From: Herbaspirillum sp. ST 5-3
Lineage (GTDB): Bacteria; Pseudomonadota; Gammaproteobacteria; Burkholderiales; Burkholderiaceae_D
Reading direction: 5' to 3'
Assembly: GCF_004804275.1 (NCBI RefSeq)
Contig: NZ_STGI01000004.1
Span: 269,605 to 333,604, forward strand
Length of the DNA stretch: 64,000 nucleotides
Below, piece after piece: positions 20,615 through 29,309 of the stretch. A program made the translations under genes and the position numbers. The notes below the pieces were generated by a model. That model worked only from the letters and a program-made list of their open reading frames with translations. It had not been told where the DNA came from and did not search any database. Position 1 is the stretch's first letter. Each line of letters begins with the position of its first letter.

Positions 20615-22564
20615 TTACGCTTCGACGATGAAGCGGCTACGCATTTCCAAATGCAGCGCGTGGCAGAAGTGGGTGCAATAGATCCAGTAGAGCCCCGGCT
20701 TGTCGGCCTTGAAGGTCACCGACTTGGTTTCCTGCGGATTCACGATGAAGTTGATGTTGTAGTTCGGGATTGCGCAGCCGTGCGTCAGATCTTCCACCTT
20801 GTCATGGTTGGTCAGGATGATCGTGACTTCATCACCCTTCTTCACCTTGATCTCGGGGATGCTGTACGCCGGAGCGACCGACATCATGCGTACCGTGACC
20901 TTGTTGCCCTTGCGGGTGATGCCTGCGTTTTCCGCCTTGACCGCGTTCGGGAAGTCGTCCATGTTGTAGATCTGGCGCGTCTTCACGATATCGCGGCGCA
21001 CGATGATCGCATCATGCGGTTCCGGATGTGCGGTATGGTCCGCGAGCAGGCGCATCTTGTCGCCGGTGATGTCGATCAGCTGCTCCGTTTCGACGTGCAG
21101 CGGGCCAACCGGCAGGAAGCGATCCTTCGAGAACTTGTTGCCCGAGTTGTAGTACTTGCCGTCGGCTTCCTTCGTTTCACCCATCGATGCAAAACCGTGG
21201 CCAGGCTGGTAATGCACGTCGAGCTTGTCGAGGATCGGCTTGGCGTTCTTGTCGCCCTTGTAGAGCGCAATCGCCTTGTCGACGTTCCACTTGACGATCT
21301 GGCTGTCCAGGAACAGGGTGGTGTAGGCATTGCCCTTGCCGTCGAAACCGGTATGCAAGGGGCCGAGGCCGATTTCCGGTTCCGCCACGACTGCATCGCG
21401 CTCGGTCTTCAACTCGCCGTTGAACCACTTGGTCACAAGCGCCAGTTCGATGACAGTGGCGGTCGGCGACAGCTTGCCGGAGCATACGAAGTACTTGCCG
21501 TCCGGGCTGGCGTTCACGCCGTGCGGGTTCTTGCCGACCGGCACGTAGCAAGTGATCGCGGTCTTCGGATCCTGGTTGGCTGCCTTGCGGCCGTCAACGA
21601 CCGGTACCTTGGACTTGCCGATGGTAGTGAACTTGCCGTCCTTGACGAGCTTCTCGATGCGGGCAATATTGAAGAACAGGCATGCATCGCGCTCGGCGGA
21701 CATCATGCCGGCCTGGTCGGCAGCGTTCTCGACGTTGTACTGGTTCGTACCAGCCAGCGTGCCGTCGTACGACGTCGCGACCAGGTCGCAGTTGCCGTCG
21801 ATACGGACCTGCCAGCGCACTTCCATCGATTCCGCATCGACGCAGCTGAACAGGCAACCCCACTTGGTCGGATCGTTCAGATCGTGGCCGTCGTTCGGCA
21901 GCGGGATATGGAATTCGGCGCCGCAGAACACGCGGGTGGTGTAATTGATCTTCGGATCAACCGGGTCGCACTTGTCCGGGAAGATCCCGTGGAAACCCAT
22001 CACGTTCGGCAACTGGGTGATCTTGTCGCACTCCATCGTATCCATACGGACGCGAGCGATGCGCGAATGGATCTTGTCGTTGACGAACAACCAGCGACCG
22101 TCGTACGTGCCGTCCTTGTAGCTGCCATGCACGTGATGCGTGTCGCCCGTGGTGTACTTCAGGCTGCCATCCGGGTTGGTGCCGATGATCGCCTTCGATT
22201 CATTCGTGATACCCCAGCCGCTCATCGGGTCGATGTTGAACACCGGGATGCGCTTCAGCGTGCGGCCGGAAGGAATACCGATGATGCGCATTTCGCCCGA
22301 GTGGCCGCCGCTGGAGAGTGTGTAGTAATCGTCAAGCTGGCCAGGGGGAACTTCAATGCCGTGCTTGGCAGCGGGCTGGACGGCAGCGGTTGCGCTGGCC
22401 GAACCTGCCGGTGCCGCCCCCTTCGTTGCTGCGGGCTCTTCCTTGCAACCGGCCAACACCCCTGCGCCGGCGAGTCCCAGCAATGCGCTCTGGCCCAAGA
22501 AGCGGCGGCGAGTGTTTTGCTCGGGTAGATCGTTGTTCAACTTGGTCTTTTTGGCCTTATCCAT
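20615..22564 (-). CDS. nosZ: Nitrous oxide reductase (clade I, Tat signal)
   Basis: NosZ, 649 residues, reduces N2O to N2 in the periplasm. The Tat motif TRRRFLG lies at residues 18-24. A seven-bladed propeller carries the Cu-Z histidines (for example DTHHVHG and HEPHDA-like blocks). The C-terminal cupredoxin has the CuA ligands C630, C634, H638 and M641 in YCTHFCHALHLEM. The Tat segment ends in LAGC followed by an Ala/Pro-rich stretch, which looks like a lipobox plus linker. An AAAGGT site precedes the ATG. Two FNR-type boxes lie 110 and 213 nt upstream. Confidence 0.97.
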   Translation of the reverse strand: MDKAKKTKLNNDLPEQNTRRRFLGQSALLGLAGAGVLAGCKEEPAATKGAAPAGSASATAAVQPAAKHGIEVPPGQLDDYYTLSSGGHSGEMRIIGIPSGRTLKRIPVFNIDPMSGWGITNESKAIIGTNPDGSLKYTTGDTHHVHGSYKDGTYDGRWLFVNDKIHSRIARVRMDTMECDKITQLPNVMGFHGIFPDKCDPVDPKINYTTRVFCGAEFHIPLPNDGHDLNDPTKWGCLFSCVDAESMEVRWQVRIDGNCDLVATSYDGTLAGTNQYNVENAADQAGMMSAERDACLFFNIARIEKLVKDGKFTTIGKSKVPVVDGRKAANQDPKTAITCYVPVGKNPHGVNASPDGKYFVCSGKLSPTATVIELALVTKWFNGELKTERDAVVAEPEIGLGPLHTGFDGKGNAYTTLFLDSQIVKWNVDKAIALYKGDKNAKPILDKLDVHYQPGHGFASMGETKEADGKYYNSGNKFSKDRFLPVGPLHVETEQLIDITGDKMRLLADHTAHPEPHDAIIVRRDIVKTRQIYNMDDFPNAVKAENAGITRKGNKVTVRMMSVAPAYSIPEIKVKKGDEVTIILTNHDKVEDLTHGCAIPNYNINFIVNPQETKSVTFKADKPGLYWIYCTHFCHALHLEMRSRFIVEA

Positions 22565-23032: not shown

Positions 23033-23127
23033 GAATTTCAAATAAATCCACACCCCTGATTGTCGACACTAGATTTAGTGATTAACATCATTTCGACCAC
23101 AACAGGTTGTATTCATCAGGAGGCGCA

Positions 23128-25149
23128 ATGACGGCTCGCGCAATTACTTTTCTCACAAAAATCATCAAACGGGACGGCAGTCTCAAGCCGTTCGATCCCA
23201 ACAAGATCCTGTCCGCCCTGCTTCGCGCCGGCCAGGCAAGCGGCGAGTTCGGCCATGAAGAGGCCGAAGCGCTGACCCTGCAGGCGGTCATGCAGCGCAT
23301 CCAGCTGCAAGGCGATGCTGCACCGCACATCGAGCAAATCCAGGACGTGGTCGAGGCTGTGCTGTTCGACGCAGGCTATCGCAAGACGCTGCGCGCCTAT
23401 GTCGTCTATCGCGAACAGCACAAGAAACTGCGCAACGACCGCAAGACGCTGGTCGACGTGGAATCCTCGATCAACGAATATCTCGAACAGCTCGACTGGC
23501 GCGTCAACGCGAATGCCAACCAGGGTTATTCTCTCGGCGGACTGATCCTCAATGTGTCCGGCAAGGTCATCGCGAACTACTGGCTGAATCACGTCTATCC
23601 GCCGGAAGTGGGTGAAGCACATCGCCGCGCCGACATTCATATCCACGATCTCGACATGCTGGCAGGCTATTGCGCCGGCTGGTCGCTGCGCACCTTGCTC
23701 AACGAAGGTTTGAACGGCGTGCCCGGCAAGGTGGAATCCGGCCCGCCCAGGCATATGTCGAGCGCGATTGGTCAGATCGTCAACTTTCTCGGCACCCTGC
23801 AGAACGAGTGGGCCGGCGCGCAGGCGTTCAGTTCCTTCGATACCTACATGGCGGCCTTCGTGCGCAACGACAAGCTGTCGTATGGCGAAGTCCGGCAGTA
23901 CATGCAGGAGCTGATCTACAACCTCAACGTGCCCTCGCGCTGGGGAACGCAGACGCCCTTCACCAACCTCACCTTCGACTGGGTCTGCCCGGAAGATCTG
24001 CGAGAGCAGGTGCCGGTCATCGGCGGCAAGGAAATGCCCTTCACCTATGGCGACCTGCAAGGCGAGATGGACATGATCAATCGCGCCTACATCGAAGTGA
24101 TGATGGCCGGTGATGCCAAGGGCCGCGTGTTCACCTTCCCGATCCCGACCTACAACATCACCGAAGACTTCGACTGGAACAGCCCGAACGCCGAACTGCT
24201 GTTCGAAATGACCGCACGCTATGGTCTCCCCTACTTCCAGAACTTCGTCAATTCAGAACTCAAGCCGAACATGATCCGTTCCATGTGCTGCCGGCTGCAG
24301 CTCGACCTGCGCGAGCTGCTCAAGCGCGGCAACGGCCTGTTCGGCTCGGCGGAGCAGACCGGCTCGCTCGGCGTGGTCACGATCAATTGCGCGCGCCTCG
24401 GCTATCAGTTCCGAGGCGATGAAGCCGGCTTGCTGGAGCGCGTGGACCAGTTGCTGGAAATCGGCAAGATCAGCCTCGAGATCAAGCGCAAGGTGATCCA
24501 GCGTCACATGGACAATGGATTGTTCCCGTACACCAAGCGCTACCTCGGCACGCTGCGCAATCACTTCTCGACGCTCGGCGTGAATGGCATCAATGAGATG
24601 ATCCGCAACTTCACCAACGACGAGCACGACATCACCAGCGAATGGGGCAATGCTTTCGCGCTGCGCCTGCTCGACCACGTCCGCGCGCGCATGCTGGAAT
24701 TCCAGGACCAGACCGGCAACATGTACAACCTGGAAGCGACGCCTGCGGAAGGCACGACCTACCGCTTTGCCAAGGAAGACCGCAAGCGTTTCCCGGACAT
24801 CCTGCAGGCCGGCACGGCAGAGATGCCCTACTACACCAACTCCTCGCAGTTACCGGTCGGGTTTACCGACGATCCCTTCGAGGCGCTGGAGCGGCAGGAC
24901 GAACTGCAGCGCAAGTACACCGGCGGCACGGTGCTGCACCTCTACATGACCGAACCGGTGTCCAGCTCGAACGCGTGCCGCATGCTGGTCAAGCGCGCGC
25001 TGAGCCGGTTCCGTCTGCCGTATATCACGGTCACCCCGACTTTTTCCATCTGCCCCAAGCATGGATATCTGAGCGGGAAACACGAATTCTGTCCGAAATG
25101 CGATGACGAAATTATCGCGCGCAAGATGCGCGAGGCGGAATCGGCTTAG
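23128..25149 (+). CDS. nrdD: Class III ribonucleotide reductase large subunit lacking its glycyl-radical tail
   Basis: NrdD, 673 residues, makes dNTPs without oxygen. An N-terminal ATP-cone (about residues 4-95, KIIKRDGSLKPFDPNKI) precedes the barrel with the active-site cysteines in AGYCAGWSL and RSMCCRLQ. A C-terminal zinc-type motif follows (CPKHGYL...CPKC; the second position is His, not Cys). The chain then stops 14 residues after CPKC. The glycyl-radical segment that follows in E. coli NrdD is absent and is found as a separate gene at 25371. The start at 23128 has AGGAGG four bases upstream. Confidence 0.95.
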   Translation: MTARAITFLTKIIKRDGSLKPFDPNKILSALLRAGQASGEFGHEEAEALTLQAVMQRIQLQGDAAPHIEQIQDVVEAVLFDAGYRKTLRAYVVYREQHKKLRNDRKTLVDVESSINEYLEQLDWRVNANANQGYSLGGLILNVSGKVIANYWLNHVYPPEVGEAHRRADIHIHDLDMLAGYCAGWSLRTLLNEGLNGVPGKVESGPPRHMSSAIGQIVNFLGTLQNEWAGAQAFSSFDTYMAAFVRNDKLSYGEVRQYMQELIYNLNVPSRWGTQTPFTNLTFDWVCPEDLREQVPVIGGKEMPFTYGDLQGEMDMINRAYIEVMMAGDAKGRVFTFPIPTYNITEDFDWNSPNAELLFEMTARYGLPYFQNFVNSELKPNMIRSMCCRLQLDLRELLKRGNGLFGSAEQTGSLGVVTINCARLGYQFRGDEAGLLERVDQLLEIGKISLEIKRKVIQRHMDNGLFPYTKRYLGTLRNHFSTLGVNGINEMIRNFTNDEHDITSEWGNAFALRLLDHVRARMLEFQDQTGNMYNLEATPAEGTTYRFAKEDRKRFPDILQAGTAEMPYYTNSSQLPVGFTDDPFEALERQDELQRKYTGGTVLHLYMTEPVSSSNACRMLVKRALSRFRLPYITVTPTFSICPKHGYLSGKHEFCPKCDDEIIARKMREAESA

Positions 25150-25152
25150 ATA

Positions 25153-25277
25153 GCAGACTGTTGAAAAACGTAGTGAGCGGCGCGAGATTGGAGCCGAGGA
25201 GCGCACGCGTACGGAGTGGTACGCAGAGCACCGCAGGCCCCAGGATCGGCCCGCGCAGCAGTTTTTCAACAGACTGC
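25153..25277. repeat. 125-bp palindromic element between nrdD and the glycyl-radical gene
   Basis: Imperfect 17-bp terminal inverted repeats (GCAGACTGTTGAAAAAC and GTTTTTCAACAGACTGC, one mismatch) enclose about 90 bp that can also pair imperfectly, giving one long hairpin. The loop contains ACGGAGTG and GAGCACCGC-AGG, blocks also found in the element at 58461. There is no open reading frame. It begins three bases after the nrdD stop and may also serve as its terminator. No clear target duplication is seen. Confidence 0.65.
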
Positions 25278-25370
25278 CAGAACTAGCCGAGATCAAGTCG
25301 GATCGTTTTCATTGGTCCGAAAGACGACAAAAGATGCAACTTCAACGTACACTTCGATAAGGAGATAGTC

Positions 25371-25568
25371 ATGACAGACCTTAGCAATCAAAAGGCGCTC
25401 GCAAGCAGGCAAATCATTCTCACGGATGCAGAACGCCAGCCATGCGAAATCTGGACCCGGGTGATGGGTTATCACCGTCCCGTGTCCTCCTTCAATATCG
25501 GGAAAAAGGGAGAATTTCATGAGCGTCAGTACTTTAGCGAGCAATCAGCACAACTCTCCAGCGACTGA
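25371..25568 (+). CDS. Stand-alone glycyl-radical domain of class III ribonucleotide reductase
   Basis: A 65-residue protein. Residues 25-52 (CEIWTRVMGYHRP, then SSFNIGKKGEFHER) match the C-terminal radical segment of NrdD. The RVxGY motif places the radical on Gly33, and FN-GK--E-xxR follows as in E. coli NrdD. NrdD encoded just upstream ends before this segment, so the two chains would have to combine. This parallels GrcA, the spare radical domain of pyruvate formate-lyase. The AAGGAG site six bases before the ATG is strong, and the 3' end overlaps nrdG by 50 nt. Confidence 0.85.
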   Translation: MTDLSNQKALASRQIILTDAERQPCEIWTRVMGYHRPVSSFNIGKKGEFHERQYFSEQSAQLSSD

Positions 25569-26274
25569 GAGTTTGCCGCGTTCGCTGAAGGTCGGTGGCA
25601 TCACGCCGTTTACGTCCACCGACTACCCCGGACAGCTTGCCGCGGTCGTGTTCGTGCAAGGTTGTCCGTGGCAGTGCGGGTATTGCCATAACCCGCACTT
25701 GCAGCCGCGCCTGCAGAAGAGCCCACTTCAATGGTCGCGCGTACTGGGCCTGCTGGAAAAGCGCGTCGGCCTGATCGACGGTGTCGTGTTCAGCGGCGGC
25801 GAGCCGACACTCGATCCGGCGCTGGGCAATGCCATACGAGATGTGCGCAGGCTGGGTTTCAAGATCGGCCTGCACACCGGCGGATCCTATCCGCATCGCC
25901 TCATGGAACTGTTGCCGGAGATTGACTGGATCGCGCTGGACGTCAAGGCGCCATTCAATCAGTACGAGAAAATCACCGGCGTCACCGAAAGCGGCCTGCA
26001 CGCGCTCGCATCGGCCGAAGCGATCCTTTCAAGCGGTATCGACCATGAGTTCCGCACGACCGTGCATCCGTCGCTGCTCAGTGAAGAGGAAGTGCTTGAA
26101 TTGGGCCGCACGCTGTCGAGCATGGGCGTCAAGAACTATGCGCTGCAAGTCTTCCGCGCACAGGGATGCAAAACCAAGGAATTGAAAGCGACGGCGCTGG
26201 CCGGTTATCCGAGCACAGGCCTGATTGCGCAGCTCTCGCAGTTGTTTCCGGGCTTCGTCCATCGCCCGGCATAG
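25519..26274 (+). CDS. nrdG: Radical SAM activase of anaerobic ribonucleotide reductase
   Basis: A 251-residue radical SAM enzyme that abstracts hydrogen from the glycine of its partner to form the radical. The CxxxCxxC cluster is C49-PWQ-C53-GY-C56. The SAM-binding GGEP lies in FSGGEPTLD near residues 93-101. It belongs to the longer NrdG-2 type (about 230-250 residues) rather than the 154-residue E. coli form. It starts inside the glycyl-radical gene, with GGGAG six bases upstream, so synthesis of activase and radical domain is coupled. Confidence 0.94.
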   Translation: MSVSTLASNQHNSPATESLPRSLKVGGITPFTSTDYPGQLAAVVFVQGCPWQCGYCHNPHLQPRLQKSPLQWSRVLGLLEKRVGLIDGVVFSGGEPTLDPALGNAIRDVRRLGFKIGLHTGGSYPHRLMELLPEIDWIALDVKAPFNQYEKITGVTESGLHALASAEAILSSGIDHEFRTTVHPSLLSEEEVLELGRTLSSMGVKNYALQVFRAQGCKTKELKATALAGYPSTGLIAQLSQLFPGFVHRPA

Positions 26275-26764: not shown

Positions 26765-27241
26765 TCAGGCCTGTCCGCGTCCGCCCGGCTTGATCCTTCC
26801 CAATACGCGGGCCGGAGCCAGTTTTCCGAGTTCGAATACCGGCAGCTCGATCGCATCCAGCGTGTTCTTCACCAGCAGGCCGAGTTCGGTATCGCCCTCC
26901 ATCGAAAGACGGCGGCTGAAGAACAGCGTGTCAGGATCTTCCTGGCGACGCGCAAGCAGCAGGAAGTCGTGCGCGCTGGCGCCGATCGTCAAGTCCGGCT
27001 CGCCATCCTTGCCGCATGCGGCGAAGCGTCCGTTCTCCCACTTGAAATCGAAGGACAGCTTGGCATCGGTGACGCTGATGCGCAGTTTTTTCCCGTTCAG
27101 GGACTGCTGCACGTCGGGCGGCAGATCGCCCTTCAACGCAATATTGAGCCCGGTTGCGAACAACAGTGAACCGGGATAGACCGGCAACAGGGAAAGTAGC
27201 TTGCCCACCGGCTCTGGCAACAGAAAACGACTTTGACTCAT
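26765..27241 (-). CDS. ubiT: O2-independent ubiquinone biosynthesis accessory factor UbiT (SCP2 domain)
   Basis: A 158-residue protein with an SCP2 lipid-binding domain (about residues 35-135, with LRISVTDAKLSFDFKW and DLTIGASAHDFLLLARRQEDPDTLFFSRRLSMEGDTELG). E. coli UbiT binds prenyl-quinone intermediates for anaerobic ubiquinone synthesis. The start at 27241 gives MSQSRFLLPEPVG, and GAGG lies about ten bases upstream. Denitrifying respiration uses ubiquinone, so the gene fits its surroundings. Confidence 0.9.
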   Translation of the reverse strand: MSQSRFLLPEPVGKLLSLLPVYPGSLLFATGLNIALKGDLPPDVQQSLNGKKLRISVTDAKLSFDFKWENGRFAACGKDGEPDLTIGASAHDFLLLARRQEDPDTLFFSRRLSMEGDTELGLLVKNTLDAIELPVFELGKLAPARVLGRIKPGGRGQA

Positions 27242-27380
27242 AGGAGTTTCCTCGACTGAAACTTGCTGGGCTTTGCACAGACAGATCACAGTCGACAAAG
27301 CTCAGTCCTTCACTTCCTCTCACGGAATCGCGAGAGGGCACGTCGCGGCGGAAACAGGGACTCTCCCGCTCCCGCAAAAA

Positions 27381-28274
27381 TCAGGCTGCCACCATCTGGT
27401 CAAGACCGGGCTTGCCGTACCAGAAACCGTTGCATGGCGCAGCCGGCATCAATGCCTCCATCTCGCGCATCGCTTCGGCTGCATCGCGCTTCTGCGCGAT
27501 GACATCATGGAACAGGCCAATGATACGATCGGTATGCTGCGATTGCGGACTGATGCGAACCACATCCACGCCAAGCTCGCGCATGGCGCCGATTTCATTG
27601 ACCAGGTTGTAGACCAGCGCCGATTGCGTCTGGATGCCGTTGAGCGTCAGGAAATGCTGGCCCTCGCGCGTCTTCAGCGCCAGACCATCCGGGAATTCCA
27701 TGCAGGTGAACTGGCAATCATCTTTCGGCAGGTTGCGATGGCGCGCGGTGAAGCAACGCGCGGAGAACGCCAGCGGCATTCGTCCGTAAGAGAACACCTC
27801 AGTCTCGATTCCGGCCGGGCGCCCCTGCTGCATATGGATCAGTCCATCGCGCGACATTTCCAGCGGCATGACCCAGCGTCTTGCGCCGGTTTCAGCCATG
27901 AACTGCAAGGTCGGCGGGTTGAATACATTCAGATGCGGACCGGCGACGAACGGCACCTTGCCCGCCAGGCAATGCACCGCGCCCATATCGTTCGCCTCGA
28001 CGTCGAAGCGGCCGTTTTCGGTGATCCGGTGCAGCGTGCCGATATCGGTCTTGGACTCCAGCAGGACTTGCGTGGACAGCACCACTTCCTTGCCGGCTGC
28101 CTGCAGCATATCGGCGACGTCAAGCCAATCGGTGAGCTTCAGTTCGCGACGGCGCGAGCAAACGGCCTCGCCGATATAAACGATATCGACCGGCGTCTCC
28201 GCGATCATCTGATAAAACTCGAATACGGTATTGCGCGGCCAGAAATACAGGTTCGGCCCCAGAGCCAGCTTCAA
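27381..28274 (-). CDS. ubiV: O2-independent ubiquinone hydroxylation protein UbiV (U32 family)
   Basis: A 297-residue protein of the U32 peptidase-like family. With UbiU it forms a [4Fe-4S] heterodimer that hydroxylates the ubiquinone ring without oxygen, using prephenate-derived chemistry in E. coli. The four cluster cysteines are in place: C39 (AVCSRR), C174 (ARCFTARH), C187 and C191 (DDCQFTC). It starts with TTG behind a GGAG site eight bases away. It follows ubiU by 18 nt; a 139-nt gap separates it from ubiT. Confidence 0.93.
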   Translation of the reverse strand: MKLALGPNLYFWPRNTVFEFYQMIAETPVDIVYIGEAVCSRRRELKLTDWLDVADMLQAAGKEVVLSTQVLLESKTDIGTLHRITENGRFDVEANDMGAVHCLAGKVPFVAGPHLNVFNPPTLQFMAETGARRWVMPLEMSRDGLIHMQQGRPAGIETEVFSYGRMPLAFSARCFTARHRNLPKDDCQFTCMEFPDGLALKTREGQHFLTLNGIQTQSALVYNLVNEIGAMRELGVDVVRISPQSQHTDRIIGLFHDVIAQKRDAAEAMREMEALMPAAPCNGFWYGKPGLDQMVAA

Positions 28275-28292
28275 AATGTGTTCTCCAGCAAA

Positions 28293-29309
28293 TTATTTCC
28301 AAGGCTTGTGGTAGGCGCCGAGCGTGTGCTGCTGTCCTTCCGCTACCTTGTTGAGTTCCGACATCCAGGCCGGCTTCACGGAATAGCGCTGCGCATGGTC
28401 GCGGCAATTGTCGATCGCCTCGCGCCACACCTTGGTGACTTGCGCAACGTAAGCCGGGCTGCGCTGGCGGCCTTCGATCTTGATGGCGCGCACGCCCATC
28501 GCCAGCAGTTGCGGCAGCAGTTCCAGCGTATTGAGGCTGGTCGGCTCCTCGATCGCGTAATAGCTTTCGTTGTTGACTTCGAAGCGGCCCTTGCACAGCG
28601 TCGGATAGCCCGCGTTTTCGCCTTCGTCATACCGGTCGATCAGCACGCCGTTCAGACGCGACTCCAGTCCCTTCGACGTCTGCTGCCAGCGCACCGACTT
28701 GGCGGGGGAACACACGCCGTGCGTGTTGGGCGCTTCGCCCGTGACATAGGATGAAAGTGCGCAGCGGCCTTCCACCATCACGCACAGGCTGCCGAATCCA
28801 AAGACTTCGATTTCCACCTGCGTGTTCTGGCTGACGAACTCGACCTGCTCCAGCGACAGCACGCGCGGCAGAACGGCGCGCTGGATGTTGAAGCGCTCGC
28901 GATAGAAATTGATCGCCTCGTAGTTGGTCGCCGATCCTTGCACCGAAAGATGCAAGCGCAGATCCGGGTAATTCTTCGCCGCATACTGCATCAGCGCCGG
29001 GTCCGCCAGGATGATCGCATCGATGCCCGAAGATGCGGCGCGGTCGATGGCCTTGCGCCACGGCGTGACGTCGGTTGCCTGCGGATAGGTATTCAGCGCC
29101 AGCAGGACCTTGCGACCCTTGCCATGCGCGTACGCGATACCTTCCGCAATGGCCTTCTCGTCGAAATTCAGACCCGCGAAATTGCGCGCGTTGGTCGCGT
29201 CGCGAAAGCCGAGATAAACACAATCCGCGCCATTATCGACGGCCAGCTTCAGGGCCGGGAGGCTACCGGCCGGACAAACCAGTTCCATCTGGCCTGCTGC
29301 GTTCTGCAT
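28293..29309 (-). CDS. ubiU: O2-independent ubiquinone hydroxylation protein UbiU (U32 family)
   Basis: A 338-residue partner of UbiV. Cluster cysteines C176, C183, C200 and C239 occur in the known pattern (SLCVMVEGRC, HGVCSPAK, TLCKG). The family block ELVCPAGSLPALKLAVDNGADCVYLG opens the barrel. It is the first gene of ubiU-ubiV-ubiT-DGC. Only a poor FNR half-site (TTGAT at 29343) is seen upstream, and the 58-nt gap after the flavoprotein gene suggests read-through from that promoter. Confidence 0.94.
   Translation of the reverse strand: MQNAAGQMELVCPAGSLPALKLAVDNGADCVYLGFRDATNARNFAGLNFDEKAIAEGIAYAHGKGRKVLLALNTYPQATDVTPWRKAIDRAASSGIDAIILADPALMQYAAKNYPDLRLHLSVQGSATNYEAINFYRERFNIQRAVLPRVLSLEQVEFVSQNTQVEIEVFGFGSLCVMVEGRCALSSYVTGEAPNTHGVCSPAKSVRWQQTSKGLESRLNGVLIDRYDEGENAGYPTLCKGRFEVNNESYYAIEEPTSLNTLELLPQLLAMGVRAIKIEGRQRSPAYVAQVTKVWREAIDNCRDHAQRYSVKPAWMSELNKVAEGQQHTLGAYHKPWK

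Follow-up and report, generated by a model that had tools for sequence, protein, structure and literature searches.

Organization of the nrdD-grd-nrdG locus

In a 64,000-nucleotide stretch of the Herbaspirillum sp. ST 5-3 genome (contig NZ_STGI01000004.1, positions 269,605 to 333,604; hereafter, the window), we found three consecutive plus-strand genes that appear to encode a class III ribonucleotide reductase (RNR), with the glycyl-radical end of the enzyme specified by a gene of its own. The first, nrdD (23128..25149, + strand), encodes the 673-residue catalytic chain, which has an ATP-cone, a barrel, a finger loop (SMCCR), and a zinc motif (CPKH...CPKC), and lacks a glycyl-radical tail. Its C terminus reads CPKC-DDEIIARKMREAESA and stops 15 residues past CPKC; the original prediction, made from the DNA letters, was right that NrdD ends without RVxGY but counted 14 residues. 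The NrdD tail comprises CPKHGYLSGKHEFCPKC plus 15 more residues, and the break falls after the zinc motif and before the radical loop. The second gene, which we named grd (25371..25568, + strand), corresponds to the C-terminal end of NrdD; its 65-residue product, a predicted glycyl-radical subunit, contains FNIGKKGE and RVMGY, in which Gly33 (codon 25467-25469) is the putative radical site. AAGGAG (25359..25364, + strand), read from the sequence as the grd ribosome-binding site, lies 6 nt before the ATG. The third gene, nrdG (25519..26274, + strand), overlaps grd by 50 nt and encodes a radical S-adenosylmethionine (radical-SAM) activase of the NrdG2 family (TIGR02495; 202 bits against a cutoff of 131). 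The coordinates and frames first proposed for the 65-residue open reading frame (ORF), with its ribosome site, two motifs, and nrdG overlap, were correct.

The Pfam NRDD profile (PF13597; 562 positions) is shared out between the two products: positions 2-532 fall on NrdD (E = 7e-174), and positions 530-562 fall on the grd product (E = 1.4e-7; 31 bits, cutoff 26.2). The window NrdD contains the NRDD core and barrel of a class III reductase, with a NrdG-type activase (the TIGR02495 match) encoded alongside and, at the sequence level, a zinc motif ahead of the radical loop; RVxGY is missing from this chain and lies instead on the neighboring gene. Across 25 sequences, the zinc-motif residues C642, H645, C655, and C658 are invariant, as are C182, C387, and C388. 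Class III models rank first on the window NrdD, and the class II core (NrdJa/NrdJb type) was not found: two B12-dependent models match residues 9-108 and 10-135 only, at 57 and 47 bits against cutoffs of 1125 and 2400. When the grd product was compared with Pfam at E up to 10, NRDD alone was listed and no family of the pyruvate formate-lyase (PFL) type (program filters remove most matches above 0.1); a search of solved structures gave no match at E up to 10. A predicted model of the window NrdD, which served for fold assignment only, appears closest to class III reductases by structural comparison; the best match, 8p2s_A, is a 550-residue chain that stops short of the radical domain and is uninformative on it.

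Occurrence of the split in other genomes

The two-gene split of this class III reductase is real and conserved, and it recurs in many related bacteria. With NrdD as the query, 300 genomes drawn from the order gave 82 with a match (E up to 1e-50); at E up to 1e-60, matches were found in 33 of 369 genomes drawn from the class and in 16 of 398 drawn from the phylum, and these draws overlap. With the window's small protein as the query, 16 of 60 genomes matched, among them the window genome itself and G001, whose copy is decayed. We compared 124 NrdD rows, the window included and three genomes present twice, leaving out incomplete rows, rows shorter than 450 residues, a non-NrdD row (L002), and a duplicate (L003). 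The radical tail is a separate downstream gene in 110 rows, fused in 10, apart in 1, and missing from the stretch examined in 3 (L044, counted as split, enters an unread stretch near its own end). Whole-genome searches placed the tails of these last three: 2.4 kb downstream in G099, on another contig in G091, and, in G188, at the beginning of a contig other than the one whose end holds nrdD. The tail gene of G042 lies ∼9.2 kb upstream of nrdD. These counts answer in part how widespread the split is, a question that the original prediction had left open.

Among 112 split loci with a downstream tail, 29 have the tail in the NrdD frame and 83 have it out of frame. For the 108 split loci whose start was picked by script, the gap between nrdD and the tail gene has a median of 32 nt and extends up to 376 nt (at least 100 nt in 11); the tail start overlaps NrdD in 15, at least one of which (−1999 nt) is a wrong pick, and RVMGY is present in all 108. 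Since most tails are out of frame and the gaps can be so long, read-through or frameshifting is not the general rule.

An even draw of 396 Pseudomonadota genomes contained 56 that scored above the NRDD cutoff; we read 13 of these as split and 43 as fused, the latter including G956 and G1017, in which the domain end is set off by an insert inside one open frame. Named carriers of the split include Thauera linaloolentis, Pseudomonas carbonaria, Rhodopseudomonas faecalis, Herbaspirillum sp. RV1423, Cupriavidus necator H16, and Sulfuricurvum kujiense; NrdD is fused in Actinomyces oris and Acidiphilium multivorum. A complete NrdD is present in 51 of the 64 named NrdD-bearing loci, a set found by a tail search that favors no kind yet samples unevenly, and the radical motif is absent from the NrdD end in all 51. 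In C. necator H16 the split operon lies on pHG1; according to a passage of PMC2864759, which cites Siedow et al. 1999, NrdDG is essential for complete denitrification of this strain. In RefSeq, the large gene is labeled ribonucleoside triphosphate reductase, and nrdD is the name given to the small one (one record lists only the small gene and the activase). A decayed radical gene was seen in a genome of the window's own genus (G001; L017), next to an nrdG start that shares 88% identity with that of the window; the G001 genome has no NRDD match.

Integrity of the two genes

The original prediction named a sequencing frameshift that joins the two frames and a second full-length NrdD elsewhere as possible refutations; we ruled out both. 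Beyond its own stop at 25147, the NrdD frame meets stops at 25162, 25171, 25174, and 25366; in the nrdD-grd gap, the second frame has stops at 25151 and 25358, and the grd frame has one at 25284. Thus, all three frames are closed between nrdD and grd, and no single frameshift joins them; the palindrome in the gap and the recurrence of the split in more than 100 other rows likewise contradict a sequencing error. Genome-wide protein and NRDD profile searches of the 5.8-Mb assembly (estimated 100% complete) found no second NrdD: the profile matches the two window places only, and the sole other NrdD match at E up to 0.001 is to the ATP-cone part of a 969-residue frame. Other matches of the grd product in this genome all have E values of at least 0.5.

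The palindrome (25153..25277, no strand assigned) is 125 bp long and has 17-nt terminal inverted repeats. A 131-bp query containing it found nine other near full-length copies (79 to 92% identity) in the same genome, with partial copies besides, and its RNA is predicted to fold into a hairpin of −64.1 kcal/mol (z = −6.95); we interpret it as a repeat resembling a miniature inverted-repeat transposable element that inserted between two genes.

Substitution patterns indicate that grd is under purifying selection. Relative to the nearest relative, L007, dN is 0.044 and dS is 0.62 (nonsynonymous and synonymous distances over 39 codons); over the grd region of nine loci, the mean proportions of synonymous and nonsynonymous differences (pS and pN) are 0.81 and 0.068, with the other synonymous distances mostly saturated and the stretch partly overlapping nrdG.

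Fused relatives and direction of change

Five fused rows of one family (f37) are 74 to 76% identical to the window NrdD and hold both parts in one chain; thus, the two genes correspond to one polypeptide. In a quick tree of the 124 rows, the five fused f37 genomes lie inside split rows (99%). We dropped f37 as proof of secondary fusion: when a tree of 53 chosen rows that was constrained to keep all 8 fused rows on one side was compared with the quick tree, the one-side tree had the higher likelihood (P = 0.83 in the approximately unbiased [AU] test). In a careful tree of 30 chosen rows, the three f37 rows again lie inside, and none of 200 bootstrap trees groups the fused rows on one side, the bootstrap not having settled; the AU test on these 30 rows did not reject fused rows on one side (P = 0.194). 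Overall, f37 may have re-fused, the direction that the trees favor. The linker of one f37 member, L200, retains the ERQPCEIWT stretch of the small ORF.

Lone and additional copies in cellular genomes

A scan of genome contigs for the tail was evaluated for the best 80 of at least 584 relatives. NrdD lies beside the tail in 64 and not in 16, two of which (L250 and L270) are near contig ends with nrdG. Some lone copies adjoin housekeeping genes, namely those for gyrase/topoisomerase IV subunit A (L249), prolyl-tRNA synthetase (L247), and argininosuccinate synthase (L304). All 12 searched genomes with lone copies contain a split NrdD core (in two frames in G1082), and 11 of them carry one to three copies beyond that beside nrdD; the only copy in G1083 is on a different contig. 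These 12 are metagenome assemblies by title or name, so contamination or prophage origin is possible. Two of them, Sutterella and Aphodousia assemblies (G1082 and G1084), encode a second, fused NrdD-family protein in addition to the split one.

The NRDD profile matched 147 of 153 genomes in the order of G1087, with at least three matches in 33 (28 without five that have a second core match), most of the extra matches not having been viewed singly; among the matches listed, no core match extends to the profile end. In the even draw, the 13 genomes with a split NrdD had no extra tail copy; its 43 fused genomes, like ten fused genomes chosen from the tree, had no separate tail at E up to 0.001. 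In L305 (1353-1676), from the alphaproteobacterial metagenome-assembled genome SZUA-601, a single open NrdD frame carries two tandem, near-identical glycyl-radical domains; this is possibly a built-in spare and could be an assembly artifact.

Lone copies in viral contigs

We scanned IMG/VR with the window's small protein (best 80 of 146 relatives) and with an alignment of 25 viral copies plus the window's (best 80 of 207); combined and counted by name, the scans yielded 104 contigs, whose surroundings were taken up to 5 or 8 kb on each side. Within these surroundings, NrdD is near the lone gene in one contig (IMGVR_UViG_2889436542_000005), and NrdG was found in none. The 25 whole viral records searched, all from the first 80, contain the tail in every case and the NrdD core in one; since such records are often fragments, this does not imply absence from the viruses. 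Neighbors of lone viral grd genes match phage families for portal (L063, L118, and L122), terminase (L073, L086, and L113), tape measure (L053), tail or tail fiber (L096 and L129), endolysin (L064 and L074), and integrase (L090) proteins; the remaining neighbors tested had no match or matched families of unknown function. The viral proteins range from 44 to 144 residues, by chosen starts; the 26 aligned copies share R-V-M-G-Y, R-P, N, G-K, E, and R without variation, and the closest PHROG (4132) has no assigned function. The window protein had two hits among 50,697 records of cultivated phages (E = 6e-4 and 5e-4): one falls under an annotated anaerobic reductase gene, and the other is in a record lacking annotation. 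Two phage-type small proteins had no hit in this set. With cultivated-phage searches so nearly empty, IMG/VR contigs and assemblies are the only sources of lone phage genes in this analysis.

Some further features of these loci are recorded here. Four viral copies (L063, L085, L118, and L122) have a Cys-rich N-terminal extension, perhaps with a zinc motif of its own. In nine loci, the lone radical gene is immediately preceded by a gene of ∼116 residues, and in three loci such a gene immediately follows it (for example, L239:5661-6008 and L056:4655-5005); at E up to 1e-4, the L239 copy had no Pfam or PHROG match and the L056 copy no PHROG match. A reverse transcriptase gene (L090:1826-3052), perhaps part of a diversity-generating element, shares a viral contig with a lone radical gene.

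A two-chain class III reductase

We consider it highly probable, judging from gene content and sequence, that the locus encodes a working class III reductase whose glycyl-radical domain is a separate and obligate 65-residue subunit. The division of the NRDD profile, the recurrence of the split, the selection on grd, and the fused relatives that carry both parts on a single chain support the proposal, already made in the original prediction, that NrdD and the small protein very likely form a two-chain assembly. Also in favor are the lack of any other NrdD or tail in the genome, the tail genes placed away from nrdD in G042, G099, and G091, the decayed tail of G001, the split H16 operon with its link to denitrification, and the anaerobic gene neighborhood. 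Because its partner NrdD lacks a tail of its own, the small subunit is expected to be an obligate component and not one used for rescue. NrdD would contribute the ATP-cone, the barrel with its active-site cysteines, and the zinc domain; the RVMGY loop of the small protein would enter the barrel as does the C-terminal loop of an ordinary NrdD; NrdG would install the radical on Gly33 of the small protein, and the radical would then move on to the NrdD finger-loop cysteine. The assembly is presumably noncovalent, with the small chain perhaps exchangeable. Three points weigh against this interpretation: its support stands at the level of genes and sequences rather than of proteins; the NrdD model, built with 24 relatives, is of middling confidence (mean predicted local distance difference test score, 68.7; predicted template modeling score, 0.61); and H16 genetics, in the available passages, treat nrdDG as a unit and not the small gene separately.

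That the locus is a pseudogene or an assembly error, with a stop, a frameshift, or insertion of the palindrome interrupting an ordinary nrdD, seems extremely improbable. The palindrome does sit within the nrdD-grd gap, and in L007 that gap is merely 30 nt and in frame; however, L007 is likewise split, grd has its own ribosome site and is under purifying selection, and the recurrence in more than 100 rows means that relatives already contradict this explanation. Nor is it at all likely that read-through, frameshifting, or peptide ligation yields one chain from the two frames: the tail is in frame behind an intervening stop in 29 of 112 loci, but out of frame in the other 83, across gaps of up to 376 nt, and the genes are far apart in G042 and G091 (no search for inteins or ligases was made). 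Lone copies away from nrdD could suggest that the small protein serves another glycyl-radical enzyme, which we regard as similarly improbable given that it matches the NrdD-type end with no other Pfam family listed at E up to 10, that grd sits between nrdD and nrdG, and that all 12 searched lone-copy genomes have a split NrdD (G1082 and G1084 also having the fused NrdD-family protein).

A more serious alternative is that the small protein is mainly a replaceable spare, a fresh chain supplied after oxygen has cut the old one, as GrcA is for PFL, with turnover keeping the genes split. The one to three extra copies in 11 of 12 lone-copy genomes, the 33 of 153 genomes (28 after removing five with a second core match) with at least three NRDD matches in the order of G1087, and the assembly with two tandem tail domains on NrdD fit this idea; on the other side, all 13 split genomes in the even draw are free of extra copies, the window genome has a single copy, and the 12 lone-copy genomes are all metagenome assemblies in which prophage or contamination is possible. 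We hold this alternative to be conceivable yet somewhat doubtful, and prefer the obligate two-chain enzyme.

Given the extra lone copies in some genomes and in viral contigs, exchange of the small chain of that enzyme, which the original prediction envisaged after oxygen cleavage, is plausible, although no split genome in the even draw carries an additional copy. A bolder and testable idea, to which we give slightly less than an even chance, is that the split makes the glycyl radical an exchangeable cartridge: phages that infect bacteria with split NrdD would carry the small subunit only, in place of a reductase of 700 residues, host NrdG would charge it, and host NrdD would use it, raising or rescuing the supply of deoxynucleoside triphosphates during infection, and some hosts would keep extra chromosomal cartridges. 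If so, phages would gain a minimal handle on the host's supply of DNA precursors. A two-chain enzyme would also account for NrdD entries of ∼670 residues without a radical motif, and its radical domain could be titrated, swapped, labeled, or crystallized apart from the barrel. RNR surveys with a length filter of 400 to 1100 residues, as described in a passage of PMC9531940, miss the radical subunit.

Genomic neighborhood

The reductase genes are flanked on the minus strand by nosZ and by ubiT/ubiV/ubiU, genes for oxygen-independent ubiquinone synthesis (window positions 20618-22564 and 26768-29309), a neighborhood that fits anaerobic life. About 40 bp before nrdD lies TGAT-N4-ATCA (23079..23090, no strand assigned), a candidate site that we take to be the core of a box for an Fnr/Anr-type anaerobic regulator.

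Comparison with known systems

To our knowledge, glycyl-radical enzymes studied so far hold the radical on their own chain, and GrcA rescues an enzyme that already has one. PFL retains its own radical domain, whereas the window NrdD has none, and the grd product matches NRDD rather than a PFL-type family. The similarity to GrcA (YfiD) noted in the original prediction therefore holds for the logic of a small separate protein that bears the glycyl radical for a large barrel chain (described in part of PMC12288474) and fails for the function, which should be obligate rather than rescue. As to how far the split has been described, RefSeq already names the small gene, and the available passages of PMC4860495, PMC11528403, PMC11226230, PMC4390871, PMC9669993, PMC9531940, PMC4493059, PMC9176816, PMC2795772, PMC1524935, PMC12288474, PMC12386605, PMC3653736, PMC5645315, and PMC2864759, a set that does not include Siedow et al. 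1999 or Wei et al. 2014 (N. bacilliformis), describe no separate NrdD radical subunit.

Several systems share single aspects of the arrangement. In phage T4, ORF vs.6 lies apart from nrdD, matches a glycyl-radical domain, and has a proposed role in nucleotide metabolism (passage of PMC1524935), providing a precedent for lone phage grd copies; by that description, to which our comparison is confined, the match is to Gly_radical rather than NRDD, and T4 has its own nrdD. Six phage nrdD genes extend over more than one reading frame, a division ascribed partly to introns, inteins, or homing endonucleases and in one case to an unknown cause; the passages of PMC3653736 mention no conserved split at the radical domain. 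Class II NrdJa/NrdJb likewise divides a one-chain reductase into two genes with a separate C-terminal part, but it is B12 dependent, and the separate part consists of zinc-finger and IscU-like domains with no radical site (passages of PMC9669993). The NrdDh4 subgroup, to which the window NrdD probably belongs, has the MCCR finger-loop variant, as in the window's SMCCR, and NrdDh occurs in two proteobacterial classes among others; the parts of PMC4493059 available make no mention of a missing radical domain. The closest system remains class III NrdD/NrdG itself (PRK08270, Pfam NRDD), with which the window shares the core, ATP-cone, zinc motif, adjacent activase gene, and RVxGY, and from which it differs in having the radical domain on a second polypeptide.

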